A DNA stretch of 64,000 nucleotides from Cyanobium sp. NIES-981 (GTDB lineage: Bacteria > Cyanobacteriota > Cyanobacteriia > PCC-6307 > Cyanobiaceae), in the NCBI RefSeq assembly GCF_900088535.1, contig NZ_LT578417.1, forward strand, positions 2,232,001 to 2,296,000, read 5' to 3'. The notes beneath the pieces were generated by a model. That model was given only the letters and a program-made list of their open reading frames with translations. It was not told the origin of the DNA and did no database searches. The position numbers were made by a program, and so were the translations under genes. Each line of letters starts with the position of its first letter. Within the stretch, counting starts at the first letter, position 1. Below, piece after piece: positions 53,973 to 64,000 of the stretch.

Positions 53973-54099
53973 CATGGGTCGCTTCCTGTGTCGCTGACAT
54001 CCTGTTCCTGAATTCGGCTCTCCCTGAAGGATGGCCGCATCAGGGCAACCGGGGCCTCTGCGCTGTTCTCTGTTCCCCTGGGCGCCCCTGCGAGGGCCT

Positions 54100-55257
54100 A
54101 TGGATCTCTTCAACGAAACCCTCTTCAACGGCCTCGCCATCGGATCGGTGCTCGTGCTGGCCGCCCTCGGCCTGGCCGTGGTGTTCGGCCTGATGGGTGT
54201 GATCAACATGGCCCACGGCGAGCTGATGATGCTCGGGGCCTACACCACCTTCGTGGTGCAGAACCTCTTCAAGAACGGCCCGCTGGAAGCCCTCTTCCCG
54301 CTCTACATCATCCTGGCGATCCCCGCCGCCTTCCTGGTGAGCGGTCTGGCCGGATTGCTGCTGGAGAAGACGGTGATCCGCCGTCTCTACGGCCGACCGC
54401 TGGAGACCCTGCTCGCCACCTGGGGGGTGAGCCTGATCCTGCAGCAGTTCGTGCGCTCGGTGAGCAGCGCCTTCGCCATCGGCCTGGTGGTGGCGGTGGT
54501 GGTGGGTCTGCTGGTGCCGAAGTTCACCCCCCGCACCTGGTGGCAGCAGCGCTGGACCCCCCTGCTGGGTGTGGGCAGCTGGATCGTGGCGGCGCTTGCC
54601 GGTGTGGTTCTCGCCAGCGTTCTCGGCGGCGTGAGGGTGCTCGATCAGCCCTGGTTCAGTGCCCGCAACATCGACGTGACGGCACCCGTGTGGCTGCGCG
54701 GCTCCCTGCAGGTCGGGGCGCTCACCATGCCGGTGGCCCGCTTGTTCATCATCGCCCTCACGATCGTCTCGCTGGTGGCGGTCACCTGGTTTCTCCAGAA
54801 GAGCGTCTGGGGGATCCGCATCCGTGCCGTGACCCAGAACCGGCCGATGAGCGACTGCCTGGGCATCCCCACCGAAACGGTGGATGCGCTCACCTTCCTG
54901 GTGGGCTCCGGTCTGGCGGGCGTAGCGGGCGTGGCTGTGACCCTGCTGGGCTCGGTGGGGCCGAATCTCGGCGGCAACTACATCGTGGACTGTTTCATGG
55001 TGGTGGTGCTCGGCGGGGTGGGCAAGCTGCTGGGCACTGTTGTGGCCGCTCTGGGCATCGGCGTGCTCAGCTATGTGATCGGTTCGGGCTCGCTGCTGCT
55101 GGTGTGGCCCGCCATGCCGGAGGGGCTCAACGCCCTGGTCACCTTCTTCGCCACCACCTCGATGGCGAAAGTGCTCGTGTTCGCCGTGATCGTGGTGTTC
55201 CTGCAGTTCAGGCCCGCTGGCCTGTTCCCGCAGAAGGGACGCATGGTGGAGGCCTGA
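54100..55257 (+). CDS. urtB: Urea ABC transporter permease UrtB
   Basis: Membrane permease of the LivH type, 385 residues, with about nine hydrophobic segments. The N-terminus NETLFNGLAIGSVLVLAALG, LMGVINMAHGELMMLGAY and TWGVSLILQQFVR are characteristic. ATG 54100 is preferred over an in-frame upstream start because the conserved sequence begins there. It lies three bases before urtC. Confidence 0.94.
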   Translation: MDLFNETLFNGLAIGSVLVLAALGLAVVFGLMGVINMAHGELMMLGAYTTFVVQNLFKNGPLEALFPLYIILAIPAAFLVSGLAGLLLEKTVIRRLYGRPLETLLATWGVSLILQQFVRSVSSAFAIGLVVAVVVGLLVPKFTPRTWWQQRWTPLLGVGSWIVAALAGVVLASVLGGVRVLDQPWFSARNIDVTAPVWLRGSLQVGALTMPVARLFIIALTIVSLVAVTWFLQKSVWGIRIRAVTQNRPMSDCLGIPTETVDALTFLVGSGLAGVAGVAVTLLGSVGPNLGGNYIVDCFMVVVLGGVGKLLGTVVAALGIGVLSYVIGSGSLLLVWPAMPEGLNALVTFFATTSMAKVLVFAVIVVFLQFRPAGLFPQKGRMVEA

Positions 55258-55260
55258 TCC

Positions 55261-56388
55261 ATGCCACGCCTGCGTCAATGGTTGCCCTGGCTGCTGATCA
55301 TCGCGGCCGGCCTCATCCTTCCGGCCGTGCTGCCGCCCTTTCGGCTCAACCTCCTCGGCCGCTTTCTCTCCCTCGGCATCGTGGCCCTGGGCATCGACCT
55401 GATCTGGGGCTTCACCGGCCTGCTCAGCCTGGGTCAGGGCATCTTCTTCGCCCTCGGGGGCTATGCCATCGGCATGTACCTCCAGCTCAAGAGCCTGCAG
55501 CCCGGCCAGCTGCCCGAGTTCTTCGGCCTCTATGGCGTTCAGGAACTGCCGGCCTTCTGGAAGCCGTTCGGCTCACCCCTGTTCACCTTCCTCTGCATCT
55601 GGGTGTTGCCGGCCCTCGTGGCGGGGGTGCTGGGCTATCTGGTGTTCCGCAACCGCATCAAGGGGGTCTACTTCTCGATCCTCACCCAGGCCTCCCTGCT
55701 GGTGTTCTTCAACTTCTTCAACGGCCAGCAGAAGCTGATCAATGGCACCAACGGCCTCAAGACCGACACGGCGCGCATCTTCGGCCAGCTGGTGGGCAGT
55801 GACGGCATGCAGCGCTGGCTGTTCTGGCTCACCCTGCTGCTGGTGGTGGCCTCCTGGGTGCTGTGCCGCTGGCTCACCCGCGGCCGCTTCGGCGATGCGC
55901 TGATCGCCATTCGTGACGACGAACCACGCCTGCGCTTCACCGGCTACAACCCCACGGCCTACAAGACGGTGGTCTTCGCCATCGCCGGCGCCCTGGCCGG
56001 GGTGAGCGGTGCCCTCTACACCGTGCAGTCCGGCATCATCTCGCCCCAGTTCATGGCCGTGCCGTTCTCGATCGAGATGGTGATCTGGGTTGCCGTCGGC
56101 GGACGGGGCACCCTGATCGGCGCCGTGCTCGGCGCCGTGCTGATCAACTACGCCAAGAGCCTGGTGAGCGAGCAGCTGCCGGAAACCTGGCTGTTCATCC
56201 AGGGCGGCCTCTTCCTTCTGGTGGTCACCGCCTTGCCCGATGGGCTGGTGGGCTGGTGGCGTCAGGGTGGTCCGCGCCATCTCCAGGCCATGGTGGGCTG
56301 GCCGCCGCTGGCACCCACCTACCCCAGCCTCGATCTCGATCCGGCTGTGCAGGCTGAAAAGCACGACCTTCAGGGAGGTGGGTCATGA
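55261..56388 (+). CDS. urtC: Urea ABC transporter permease UrtC
   Basis: Second permease, LivM type, 375 residues with about nine hydrophobic segments. GIDLIWGFTGLLSLGQGIFF and FAIAGALAGVSGALY are family signatures. The C-terminal 40 residues form a soluble extension. The stop overlaps the urtD start by 4 bases (ATGA). Confidence 0.94.
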   Translation: MPRLRQWLPWLLIIAAGLILPAVLPPFRLNLLGRFLSLGIVALGIDLIWGFTGLLSLGQGIFFALGGYAIGMYLQLKSLQPGQLPEFFGLYGVQELPAFWKPFGSPLFTFLCIWVLPALVAGVLGYLVFRNRIKGVYFSILTQASLLVFFNFFNGQQKLINGTNGLKTDTARIFGQLVGSDGMQRWLFWLTLLLVVASWVLCRWLTRGRFGDALIAIRDDEPRLRFTGYNPTAYKTVVFAIAGALAGVSGALYTVQSGIISPQFMAVPFSIEMVIWVAVGGRGTLIGAVLGAVLINYAKSLVSEQLPETWLFIQGGLFLLVVTALPDGLVGWWRQGGPRHLQAMVGWPPLAPTYPSLDLDPAVQAEKHDLQGGGS

Positions 56389-57146
56389 CTGTGTCACCGC
56401 TGCTGGAACTGCGTGGGGTGAGTGTGAGCTTCGATGGCTTCTGGGCCCTCAGCGATCTCAACCTCGCCCTCGCACCCGGTGAACTGCGCGCCGTGATCGG
56501 TCCGAACGGCGCCGGCAAGACCACCTTCCTGGATGTGATCACCGGCAAGGTGAAACCCACCAAGGGGGAGGTTCACTTCCGTGGTCAGTCGTTGCTGGGC
56601 ATCAGCGAACACAAGATCGCCAGGCTGGGTATCGGCCGCAAATTCCAGACCCCGCGCGTGTATCAGAACCTCACGCCGCGGCGCAACCTGGAGCTGGCCG
56701 TCAGCCGGCGGTCGTCTCCCTTTGATCTGCTCTTCGGCCGGCTGGATTCCACCGCCAGGGACCGGGTGCAGCACCTTCTGGGCGTGGTGGGGCTCGAGCC
56801 CCATGCCAACCAGCGGGCCGGGGGCCTCTCCCACGGCCAGAAGCAGTGGCTGGAGATCGCCATGCTGGTGGCACAGGATCCGCAGCTGCTGCTGGTGGAC
56901 GAGCCCGTGGCTGGCCTCACCGACGAGGAGACCAAACTCACGGCTGATCTGCTCAAGCAGCTCTCCGGGGATCACACCGTGCTGGTGATCGAGCACGACA
57001 TGGAGTTCATCCGCGATCTGCAGGCGCCGGTCACGGTGCTCCATGAAGGTCACGTGCTGTGTGAGGGCCCCATGGATCAGGTGCAGAGCGATCCGCGGGT
57101 GATCGAGGTGTATCTCGGCAGCGAAACCGAGGGTGAATTCAACTGA
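56385..57146 (+). CDS. urtD: Urea ABC transporter ATP-binding protein UrtD
   Basis: First ATPase subunit, LivG type, 253 residues. Walker A GPNGAGKTT, signature LSHGQKQWLE and Walker B LLLVDEPVAGL are all present. The start forms an ATGA overlap with urtC. Confidence 0.95.
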   Translation: MTVSPLLELRGVSVSFDGFWALSDLNLALAPGELRAVIGPNGAGKTTFLDVITGKVKPTKGEVHFRGQSLLGISEHKIARLGIGRKFQTPRVYQNLTPRRNLELAVSRRSSPFDLLFGRLDSTARDRVQHLLGVVGLEPHANQRAGGLSHGQKQWLEIAMLVAQDPQLLLVDEPVAGLTDEETKLTADLLKQLSGDHTVLVIEHDMEFIRDLQAPVTVLHEGHVLCEGPMDQVQSDPRVIEVYLGSETEGEFN

Positions 57147-57157
57147 CTTCCAAGCCG

Positions 57158-57910
57158 ATGACCGTCACCAGCCCCCTGCAGGACCCCCCCGATCCCGTGG
57201 CCGACACGGTGCTTGAGGTCCAGGGCCTCAATGTGTATTACGGCGAGAGCCACATCCTCAGAAACGTGGATCTGAGCGTGCGCCCGGGCCAGATGGTGTG
57301 CCTGATCGGCCGCAACGGCGTCGGCAAGACCACCCTGCTCAAGACGGTGGTGGGCCTGCTGCGCCAGCGCAGCGGGCACGTGACCCTGGAGGGGCGCGAC
57401 CTCTCCGCCCTGCCGCCCCACGGACGAGCCCGCGGCGGTATCGCCTACGTGCCCCAGGGGCGGGAGATCATTCCGCGCCTCACGGTGCGTGAGAACCTGC
57501 TGCTGGGCCTCGAAGCGCTGCCGGGCGGCCTGGGCCGCAACCGCCACATCGACCCGGTGGTGTTCGAGCTGTTTCCCGTGCTCGAGAAGTTCCTCAACCG
57601 CCAGGGGGGCGACCTCTCCGGTGGGCAGCAGCAGCAGCTCGCCATTGCCCGGGCCCTCCTCGGCAAACCGAAGCTGCTGCTGCTGGATGAGCCCACCGAG
57701 GGCATCCAGCCGTCGGTGGTGCTCGACATCGAGCGGGCCGTGCGCCGGATCATCGCCACCACCGGCGTGAGTGTGCTGTTGGTGGAGCAGCACCTGCACT
57801 TCGTGCGCCAGGCCGACTGGTACTACGCGATGCAGAAGGGTGGGGTGGTGGCCAGTGGCCCCACGGCCGAGCTGAGCAAGGACGTGGTGGACCGCTTCCT
57901 GAGCGTCTGA
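57158..57910 (+). CDS. urtE: Urea ABC transporter ATP-binding protein UrtE
   Basis: Second ATPase subunit, LivF type, 250 residues. Walker A GRNGVGKTT, signature LSGGQQQQLAIARAL and Walker B LLLLDEPTEGIQP are intact. It closes the urtABCDE operon and converges on pabC with a 17-base gap. Confidence 0.95.
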   Translation: MTVTSPLQDPPDPVADTVLEVQGLNVYYGESHILRNVDLSVRPGQMVCLIGRNGVGKTTLLKTVVGLLRQRSGHVTLEGRDLSALPPHGRARGGIAYVPQGREIIPRLTVRENLLLGLEALPGGLGRNRHIDPVVFELFPVLEKFLNRQGGDLSGGQQQQLAIARALLGKPKLLLLDEPTEGIQPSVVLDIERAVRRIIATTGVSVLLVEQHLHFVRQADWYYAMQKGGVVASGPTAELSKDVVDRFLSV

Positions 57911-61668: not shown

Positions 61669-62385
61669 TTGATCACGTCTCCGGATCTGCAGAAGCTTGC
61701 CCGTTACGGCCTGCTGCGTCCCTTCATCCGCCAGGTGAGGCTGGAGGAGGCCCTCGAGGGGATCGCGCTCGATGGCGAGGAGCGGGAGGCGGCCTGGGCG
61801 CAGTTCCGCGAGGACAACGGCATCGAGAGCGAGGAGGATCTGCAGCGGCTCCGGCAGGGGCTGATGATGAGCCAGGCGGACGTGGACTACCAGGCCCAGT
61901 TCCCCGTGAGGGTGTGGAAGTACTGCGTGGAGCACTTCGCGGCCAAGGCCGAATCCCGCTTCCTGGCCAAGAAGGCCGACCTCGACCAGGTGGTCTACAG
62001 CCTGCTGCGCACCACCCAGCCCCACCTGGCCCGGGAGCTGTACCTGCAGATCAGCGAAGGGGAGGCGAGTTTCGATGCTCTCGCCGTGGCCCATGCGGAG
62101 GGACCCGAGCAGGCCACCCGCGGCATCGTGGGGCCGGTGCCGCTCACCCAGGCCCATCCGGAACTGGTGCAACGGCTGCGCACAGCCCATCCGGGCGTGG
62201 TGCTCGAGCCCTTTCCCATCGGCGAGTGGTGGCTGCTGGTGCGGCTGGAGACCCTGATCCCTGCCAGCTTCAACGACGAGGTGGCCGACGCCATGATCCA
62301 GGAGTTGCTGGACGAGTGGCTCGAGGAGGAGGTGGATGCCTGCCTCGCCCGCATGCGCCCCGGGACGGCGGAAGGGAGCCGATGA
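61669..62385 (+). CDS. PpiC-like peptidylprolyl isomerase of an export operon
   Basis: A 238-residue protein without a signal peptide. Residues about 100-215 resemble a parvulin/PpiC rotamase domain (HLARELYLQISEGEASFDAL, RGIVGPVPLTQAHPEL), preceded by a SurA-like helical N-terminus. The TTG at 61669 has GGTGGAG about 9 bases before it. It overlaps the exporter gene start (ATGA), so it probably handles a substrate of that exporter in the cytoplasm. Confidence 0.75.
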   Translation: MITSPDLQKLARYGLLRPFIRQVRLEEALEGIALDGEEREAAWAQFREDNGIESEEDLQRLRQGLMMSQADVDYQAQFPVRVWKYCVEHFAAKAESRFLAKKADLDQVVYSLLRTTQPHLARELYLQISEGEASFDALAVAHAEGPEQATRGIVGPVPLTQAHPELVQRLRTAHPGVVLEPFPIGEWWLLVRLETLIPASFNDEVADAMIQELLDEWLEEEVDACLARMRPGTAEGSR

Positions 62386-64000
62386 CCACCAGCTTCGACC
62401 TTGCCCAGCTGCGCGACCACCCCGCCTTCGCCGCCCTCTCGCCGCGGGGCCTGCAGCAGCTCGAGCGGCGCGTTGCGCGCCGGCCGTTCGCCCTGGCGGA
62501 ACCCCTCTGCCATGGCGAGCTGATCCCCTCGCGGATCCTGCTGCTGCTCTCCGGCTCGGCCCGGCTGCTGGTGCGGGATCAGGGCACGCTGCGCACCGGC
62601 GCCCGGCTGGGGGCCGGCAGCTTCGTGGGGCTGGCTTCCCTGCTGCGGGCCGCGGCCTGTGAGGAGGTGAGCGCGGCCTCGGCGGGGGAGGCGCTGGAGC
62701 TGCCCGATGAGCTGGTGCTCGCGCTGCTGGAGCAGGAGCCGGGCTTCGCGGCCTGGTGCGGCGCGGAGCTGTTCGAGGCTGAGCTGCTGGACCTGCTGGC
62801 GGGGCTGTTGGAGCGCTATCCCCGCGGCGGCCCGTCGTTGCTGGCCCTGCGGGCCGATGTCGCCGGCCGGGCCACCCTCGTGCCGCCCGAGCCCGGAGCT
62901 CTCCAGAGCCTGCCCAGGGACCAGATCCTCTTCGCCGCCAGCCAGAACCTGCTGGAGCACCCCATCGGGGCCCGCCTGGATCCAGCCCAGGGTCTGCCAC
63001 GGGTCCGCCCGCCGCTGCCTCCCCGCCTGCTGGCCCTGCCGGAGGCCGTGCTGGCCCAGCTGGATGAGGCAGGCCCTTCCCGCGCGGGCCCGGAGGCCAT
63101 CGAGCTCGAGCCGGTGGAGGCGGTGGAGGCGTCGGCCCTGGCGCCGCGGGCGGCCGGGCCGGGCCCCCTGGCGAGCCGGCTGGATTTCGGCCAGGAGCCA
63201 CGCCCCGAGCTGCGGCTGCTGCGGGGAAGCGGGCCGCTGGAGGAAACGCTGGCCTGCTTCCAGATGCTGGCCATGGAGCTCAAGCTCCCCTTCCGGCGCG
63301 ACTCGATCGAGAAGATCCTGCGGGATGTGCTGCGGCGCGGCCAGACCCCCGACCTGCAGCTCTGCGGCAACATCGCCGCGATGATGGGGCTGCACGTGAG
63401 CGGCTACCGGATCCCGGCCGCCCAGGGCACCCGGCTGCAGGTTCCGTCGCTCGTGCCCTGGAGAGGCGGCTTCGCCCTGGTGCGCGCCGCCGATGCCAAG
63501 GGCCTGGTGCTGGCCTCACCGCGGGACGGCTGGGTGGAGCTCTCGCCGCGGCAGATCGAGCAGGAGTTCCCCAACGGCATCGAGCTGCTGCTGATGGAGC
63601 GCAGCAGCGCCACGCCGGATCAGCGCTTCAGTTTCAGCTGGTTCTGGCCTTCGCTCAAGCGCTACCGCGGCCTGCTGCTGCAGGTGCTGGTGGCCTCGTT
63701 CGTGGTGCAGCTGTTCAGCCTGGCCAATCCCCTGCTCATCCAGGTGATCATCGACAAGGTGATCGCCCAGCGCAGCCTCGACACCCTGCAGGTGCTGGGC
63801 ATCGCCCTGGTGGTGGTGACCCTGCTGGAGGGATTGATCGGAGCCCTGCGCACCTTCCTGTTCACCGAAACCACCAACCGCATCGATCTGCGCCTCGGTG
63901 CCGAGGTGATCGATCACCTGCTGCGCCTGCCGCTGAGTTATTTCGACCGCCGTCCGGTGGGGGAACTGGGAACGCGGGTGGCGGAACTGGAGAACATCCG
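62382..64000 (+). CDS. Peptidase-domain ABC exporter with N-terminal cNMP-like domain (cut by window edge)
   Basis: 539 codons are visible. Residues about 1-130 resemble a cyclic-nucleotide-binding fold (SRILLLLSGSARLLVRDQG, GARLGAGSFVGLASLL). Residues about 285-410 form a C39-like domain: ETLACFQMLAMELKLPF, MMGLHVSGYRI, LASPRDGWVEL. The catalytic Cys position appears to be Glu, suggesting a non-cleaving domain. From about residue 420 the transmembrane domain begins (LLLQVLVASFVVQLFSLANP, DRRPVGELGTRVAELENI). The ATPase domain is outside. Probable type I secretion or peptide export, as in HetC-like proteins. Confidence 0.85.
   Translation, partial: MTTSFDLAQLRDHPAFAALSPRGLQQLERRVARRPFALAEPLCHGELIPSRILLLLSGSARLLVRDQGTLRTGARLGAGSFVGLASLLRAAACEEVSAASAGEALELPDELVLALLEQEPGFAAWCGAELFEAELLDLLAGLLERYPRGGPSLLALRADVAGRATLVPPEPGALQSLPRDQILFAASQNLLEHPIGARLDPAQGLPRVRPPLPPRLLALPEAVLAQLDEAGPSRAGPEAIELEPVEAVEASALAPRAAGPGPLASRLDFGQEPRPELRLLRGSGPLEETLACFQMLAMELKLPFRRDSIEKILRDVLRRGQTPDLQLCGNIAAMMGLHVSGYRIPAAQGTRLQVPSLVPWRGGFALVRAADAKGLVLASPRDGWVELSPRQIEQEFPNGIELLLMERSSATPDQRFSFSWFWPSLKRYRGLLLQVLVASFVVQLFSLANPLLIQVIIDKVIAQRSLDTLQVLGIALVVVTLLEGLIGALRTFLFTETTNRIDLRLGAEVIDHLLRLPLSYFDRRPVGELGTRVAELENI

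Follow-up and report, generated by a model that had tools for sequence, protein, structure and literature searches.

An operon of Cyanobium sp. NIES-981 that probably encodes HlyB/HlyD-type secretion through an exporter with a non-catalytic C39-like domain

Several described export systems resemble the operon analyzed here, and the account of them given below covers the available parts of the papers cited. The nearest in gene content is the group I bacteriocin cluster of cyanobacteria (Wang, Fewer and Sivonen 2011, PMC3140520), in which a long-type transporter (CAP_ED, C39, and ABC domains) is encoded together with a rotamase called SurA and an HlyD protein. Group I makes up 57 of the 145 catalogued clusters, is missing from just one of the genomes that have clusters, and is found once to three times in almost every genome listed. 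Its predicted precursors are few: 0.35 per cluster, versus 3.78 in group II (Table 2 of PMC3140520), with 20 putative precursors listed for the 57 group I clusters. A second relative is HetC from Nostoc PCC 7120, an active protease with the domain order CNBD, C39, ABC and, according to the available text, no adaptor gene nearby (PMC10986499). The N-terminal part of HetC binds ppGpp in vitro with a Kd of about 59 μM, cAMP and 2-oxoglutarate gave it no significant protection in the experiments described there, and the cNMP region is required in vivo (PMC10986499). The third comparison is with the HlyB/HlyD type I secretion systems. RTX exporters use C39-like domains that lack the catalytic Cys and to which unfolded cargo binds (PMC8277102, PMC6363468), and in HlyB the residue standing in for the catalytic Cys is Tyr9 (PMC8277102). 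Among cyanobacteria, Synechocystis PCC 6803 has an RTX-type S-layer protein and the TolC-like protein Slr1270 (cited in PMC11594277 and PMC3034196), and its S-layer protein is exported by the HlyB/HlyD analogues Sll1180/Sll1181 (Agarwal 2018, cited in PMC11594277).

We analyzed a window of 64,000 nucleotides, that is, the whole stretch C1:2232001-2296000 of the single-contig, 3.02-Mb genome of Cyanobium sp. NIES-981. A preliminary description of its right end had proposed an exporter with a cyclic-nucleotide-like domain and a C39-like domain, coupled to a rotamase. The features are listed below in window coordinates, except for the last, which is numbered within locus L003.

61669..62385, + strand: PpiC-like (SurA/PrsA-like parvulin) gene, TTG start, 238 aa
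62382..64000, + strand: exporter gene, first 539 of 988 codons, with 1348 more bases past the right edge
62382..62774, + strand: cyclic-nucleotide-binding-domain fold with an altered phosphate cassette, exporter residues 1-131
62631..62663, + strand: phosphate-cassette positions Leu84, Cys93, and Glu94
63207..63626, + strand: C39-like domain, exporter residues 276-415, from profile and fold comparison
63243..63245, + strand: Glu288 at the catalytic Cys position, from alignment
63468..63470, + strand: Gly363 at the catalytic His position, from alignment
63516..63518, + strand: Ser379 at the catalytic Asp position, from alignment
63630..64000, + strand: start of the ABC membrane domain (HlyB-like), ending at the window edge
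L003:5349-6557, beyond the right edge and 3′ of the exporter gene: HlyD-type gene, 402 aa

The stop codon of the PpiC-like gene overlaps the exporter ATG at 62382, and the exporter stop in turn overlaps the ATG of the HlyD-type gene by one base; the adaptor protein scored 78.9 bits with HlyD_3 (Pfam cut-off 22.2). This gene set is the same as that of group I, and the operon is thus of a kind already known and catalogued, a published cyanobacterial cluster type (PMC3140520, in the part available). The coupling of exporter to rotamase was borne out by the first of these overlaps and by the conservation of the set across the class described below. The preliminary description had also placed accessory and cargo genes past the right edge: the adaptor gene is indeed there, adjoining the exporter gene, but no cargo gene was found; after the adaptor gene comes a convergent pyrG-like gene (named by eye). 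A second, diverged copy of the operon, consisting of genes for a PpiC-like protein, a 992-aa exporter, and HlyD, lies in the same genome about 113 kb to the right (L005:8238-13635; C1:2406237-2411634). It lies near glycosyltransferase-like genes and a DUF4214-like gene (names by eye), as well as a gene for a 257-aa Gly-Asp-repeat protein with no Pfam match. About 13-24 kb to the right of the first operon, a stretch with a recombinase-like and two transposase-like genes, recognized by eye (L004:277-11290; C1:2311277-2322290), is perhaps a mobile island. Within the window, positions 54031-57910 hold four ABC-transporter-like genes in a row that by eye resemble a urea uptake (urt) set.

The 988-aa exporter combines the cyclic-nucleotide-domain fold and the C39 fold with HlyB-type membrane and ATPase parts. 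Its closest solved relative is HlyB (2.8e-160), and its top model is TIGR01846 (HlyB type), at 708.8 bits and thus 17 under the cut-off of 725.55. The ATPase end, sought by extending the sequence to the right, was found there and is intact by motif, with Walker A, the signature, and Walker B-Glu all present. The genome has one TolC-like gene, located away from the operon (OEP, 183.1 bits; cut-off 22). The system therefore shares with the HlyB/HlyD type I systems an HlyB-like core, a non-catalytic C39 fold without the Cys, an HlyD adaptor, and a TolC-like gene, and differs from them in adding an N-terminal cyclic-nucleotide fold and a gene for a parvulin partner. An AlphaFold model of exporter residues 1-430 had a mean pLDDT of 84, with residues 231-273 below 50. 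Between the nucleotide-domain and C39-like folds, it contains a small, confidently folded β-rich segment (window 62830-63070, residues about 150-230) in which G196 and R215 are conserved; it may be a second roll of the cyclic-nucleotide kind in reduced form.

Generic similarity to many ABC-B exporters would also be expected of an exporter of small molecules (e.g., a siderophore or lipid) whose N-terminal domains are remnants, and, according to the available part of PMC11171426, HlyB-HlyD-TolC offers a possible exit for the siderophore of Synechococcus PCC 7002. We consider this reading very improbable, given that the HlyB-type model is far ahead of the runner-up (486.5 bits), that the SurA/PrsA-like partner and the C39-like domain both point to a polypeptide cargo, and that RTX genes neighbor the operon in relatives.

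The presence of a C39-like domain with Glu at the catalytic Cys position was confirmed by fold and by alignment. Peptidase_C39 (Pfam) scored 15.3 bits on the window part of the exporter, below the cut-off of 22. Residues 276-415 of the model superimposed on the C39 domain of PCAT1 (8vp6) with Z 15.8 and rmsd 2.4 over 135 aligned residues, and the same region on that of LahT with Z 15.5 and rmsd 2.5 over 132. When a profile of 16 sequences was aligned with HlyB (6.8e-72, beginning at HlyB residue 7), Glu288 paired with Tyr9. The alignment revealed no intact triad, the Cys, His, and Asp positions being occupied by Glu288, Gly363, and Ser379; the catalytic His is kept by HlyB (PMC8277102, available part) but lost in the exporter here. 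Across 78 aligned exporters, the Cys column holds Cys in 1, the His column His in none, and the Asp column Asp in 6. In this set, the window's protein and its paralogue stand in for L001, L003, L010, and L005; L002, L004, and L006-L009 were unused; and identical proteins were counted once. The alignments used in this study (A1-A5) comprised 16, 31, 28, 19, and 28 sequences chosen from these 78 exporters and from 71 PpiC proteins.

A FastTree phylogeny of the membrane and ATPase part, to which relatives were added solely as ORFs of at least 650 aa scoring >300 bits, and with one short exporter as the outgroup, separated clade A (n = 94, including both exporters of this genome), clade D (n = 4), and clade B (n = 11). 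Support was 1.0 for A plus D, a moderate 0.83 for A, and 0.97 for B. A complete Cys-His-Asp triad was present in all 11 members of clade B and in the outgroup (1/1), and in none of clade D (0/4) or clade A (0/94), where the single columns hold Cys in 1, His in 1, and Asp in 6 of the 94. The simplest history suggested by these sequences is that the catalytic Cys was lost once, before clades A and D diverged. Clade B includes the HetC-like L194, whose triad is complete and whose Cys348 and His421 match C347 and H420 of HetC (PMC10986499, available part). HetC itself, with the same domain order as the exporter here, differs from it in being an active protease and in having no adaptor gene nearby, as far as the available text goes, whereas the exporter here lacks a complete triad and adjoins an HlyD gene. 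In clade A, a single exporter (L044:8666-9976, − strand) has Cys where the catalytic Cys belongs; as Ser stands at its His position, this protein may be a remnant of the active state. Clade D consists of shorter exporters without the catalytic Cys (L188, L193, L216, and L230; 840-894 aa); in the clade-D flanks at L195 and L203, a PpiC-like gene lies upstream and no HlyD gene follows the exporter. Trp360 was considered as a hallmark of the C39-like state and dropped, because it is found too in 11 of the 11 active clade-B proteins.

With a complete triad in 0 of 94 proteins, an intact peptidase in clade A was ruled out, and it is well supported at the level of sequence that the clade-A domain should not cleave, in line with the proposal that cargo is recognized and not cut. 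In the literature searched, which was covered in part and largely excluded subscription titles, we found no report of the incomplete clade-A triad. The available part of PMC3140520 treats the group I C39 domain as a leader peptidase, whereas in clade A the triad is incomplete throughout. We infer that group I corresponds to clade A from gene content and spread. The missing triad would explain the low precursor count of group I, and the published bacteriocin label is probably wrong for clade A. On that label, the operon would export bacteriocins whose double-Gly leaders are removed by the C39 domain or by another protease. The match of the gene set to group I, with its 20 putative precursors per 57 clusters (PMC3140520, available part), and the intact triad of clade B amid the same kinds of genes speak for it; the absence of any complete triad in clade A, the scarcity of precursors that the same paper gives for group I clusters, and the RTX neighbors in relatives make it improbable. 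Double-Gly leaders were sought by pattern near the operons, at clade-B loci, and in controls, and none turned up in any of them, so that the scan was uninformative.

The cyclic-nucleotide-like nature of the N-terminal domain held up as a matter of fold. Although cNMP_binding (Pfam) scored 26.0 bits on the window part, below the cut-off of 27.5, model residues 1-163 matched the regulatory subunit of cAMP-dependent kinase (6rsx) with Z 17.0 and rmsd 2.1 over 129 aligned residues, and a profile of 31 N-terminal parts retrieved cGMP- and cAMP-binding domains (best 3.9e-23). Profiles were needed here, as searches of solved-structure sequences with single sequences of this part or of the parvulin were unproductive. 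The canonical phosphate-cassette Glu and Arg, which from CRP and PKA we take to correspond to the positions of Leu84 and Cys93, are kept in 3 and 0 of the 78 exporters, respectively. A Cys-Glu motif is found instead, with Cys93 in 62 and Glu94 in 73 of the 78. Because the cassette Glu and Arg are so rarely kept, ordinary cyclic-nucleotide binding by this domain is unlikely to judge from its residues. By analogy with the N-terminal part of HetC, which binds ppGpp, a ligand other than cAMP or cGMP is possible, and the domain would more likely have a docking or regulatory role toward something other than these two nucleotides. Whether it goes further and acts as a true sensor, with a nucleotide such as ppGpp gating an export that otherwise proceeds as we propose below, seems to us possible if doubtful. 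The retained fold, the conserved Cys-Glu of the cassette, ppGpp binding by HetC, and the need for its cNMP region in vivo (PMC10986499, available part) are consistent with such gating; the scarcity of the canonical Glu and Arg argues against it, and the literature searched, seen in part, gave no ligand test for clade A.

The partner protein is a parvulin by both sequence and fold. Rotamase (Pfam) scored 28.5 bits (cut-off 21.7), and a profile of 28 relatives retrieved SurA (8.1e-14) and PrsA (2.1e-9). The model of the PpiC-like protein had a pLDDT of 95, and its parvulin part matched 6xd8 with Z 15.8 and rmsd 1.5 over 93 aligned residues. Over most of its length, the protein matched PrsA and SurA with Z 15 to 17 and rmsd 6 to 16, and the parvulin part alone matched solved structures with rmsd 1.5 to 2.3. 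In agreement with the preliminary description of a rotamase without a signal peptide, a signal-peptide-like stretch above a Kyte-Doolittle mean of 2.0 was found in none of the 71 PpiC relatives (own protein included), by the crude measure of a 12-residue window over the first 50 residues. Parvulins have dual active-site histidines, as in Pin1. The column of the second His holds V, L, I, or A in all 71 PpiC-like proteins; one of the 71 has a His within the first strand, in a strand-level look in which the first His column was not aligned residue by residue. To call the rotamase inactive would be too strong, as the usual histidines are absent and activity without them is possible. PpiC-like proteins beside active clade-B exporters keep the second His (L196:7805-8575, L197:1609-2364, and L198:8905-9654, all in one genome), and those at two clade-D loci lack it.

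The operon is widespread in the class. Of the 291 genomes sampled from the phylum, 122 matched the PpiC profile at E 1e-25, namely 28 of 37 members of the organism's own family and 94 of 104 other class members (122 of 141 in total). Outside the class there were 0 matches in 150 genomes, provided that the unlisted genomes follow list order, 149 genomes without a match having been assigned outside the class from that order. The nine own-family members without a match all have genomes of 1.6-1.8 Mb. Among class members, PpiC and exporter occur together in 120, PpiC alone in 2 (G181 and G262), the exporter alone in 1 (G163), and neither in 18, in a table read by hand from two lists with an exporter threshold of 1e-130 chosen by us. 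Of 60 fetched loci, to which the own family contributed 20, 53 contained PpiC and 55 HlyD; 49 had both genes along with the exporter, including 20/20 own-family loci. In a larger set of 142 loci, many of which are truncated at contig ends, the exporter family was present in 140, HlyD in 117, and PpiC in 102; the next commonest family was that of RTX proteins, in 13 loci. The gene set is more than chance, since it is conserved across the class, and this spread ruled out the idea that the architecture is rare. Among the matches listed by a scan of named genomes (80 loci), none came from PCC 6803, PCC 7942, PCC 7120, or WH8102, and no strain from PMC3140520 was recognized. L102, on a contig titled Candidatus Gracilibacteria, carries a cyanobacterial exporter (74% identical) and is probably a mislabelled bin.

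The neighborhoods of relatives hint at the cargo. Of the 20 same-family loci, 6 have RTX ORFs close to the operon, versus 0 of 40 control windows (p 0.0008); restricted to the ten control genomes, the comparison is 3 of 10 loci versus 0 of 40 windows (p 0.006). The controls were 40 windows from ten same-family genomes at spaced, not random, positions. Over the 142 loci, 18 have an RTX-motif ORF and 124 are without one nearby. In a same-genus relative, an ORF for a 771-aa cadherin/RTX protein lies 300 bases past hlyD on the same strand. In the genome studied here, no RTX or other cargo gene adjoins the operon, and the sole gene above the RTX cut-off, for a 229-aa protein (C1:887796-888485), lies 1.4 Mb away.

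Taken together, the operon quite likely encodes HlyB/HlyD-type type I secretion through an exporter with a non-catalytic C39-like domain, with RTX or surface proteins as the proposed cargo. A leader-cutting domain has here lost its active site, and whole surface or repeat proteins are therefore the more likely cargo of the system. We propose that the parvulin, which lacks a signal peptide, would keep new cargo unfolded in the cytosol. The C39-like domain, its triad gone, would then tether the cargo without cutting it, as in HlyB, and the cargo would pass from the ABC core to HlyD and on to the TolC-like protein, whose gene lies elsewhere in the genome. To judge from the gene neighborhood in relatives, this cargo would be an RTX-type secreted or surface protein. 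Sll1180/Sll1181, which are HlyB/HlyD analogues like the products of this operon, are a likely counterpart, the two being likened here by description (PMC11594277 and PMC11171426, available parts). As regards the preliminary description, its observation of an exporter with cyclic-nucleotide-like and C39-like domains, coupled to a rotamase, was confirmed. Its interpretation is partly supported: the predicted lack of cleavage and the adjoining HlyD gene speak for it, but the cargo was not found past the right edge.

Textbook residues are gone from three domains of this system, namely the parvulin histidines, the phosphate cassette (now Cys-Glu), and the C39 triad. A bolder reading, which we regard as rather unlikely, is a relay of three repurposed domains in which the nucleotide domain would sense a new, non-cyclic ligand and gate S-layer or RTX export, so that the commonest "bacteriocin clusters" would be regulated surface-protein secretion systems. 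For HlyB/HlyD-type secretion through a non-catalytic domain, which we favor, what the nucleotide-domain fold does becomes testable in laboratory strains through comparison with HetC. Should the loss of the triad extend to the published strains, the predicted bacteriocin clusters that form the largest class in cyanobacteria (57/145) probably carry the wrong label, and the numbers of such bacteriocins obtained by genome mining would be too high. If true, our reading would tie one old, class-wide operon to the export of RTX and surface proteins.
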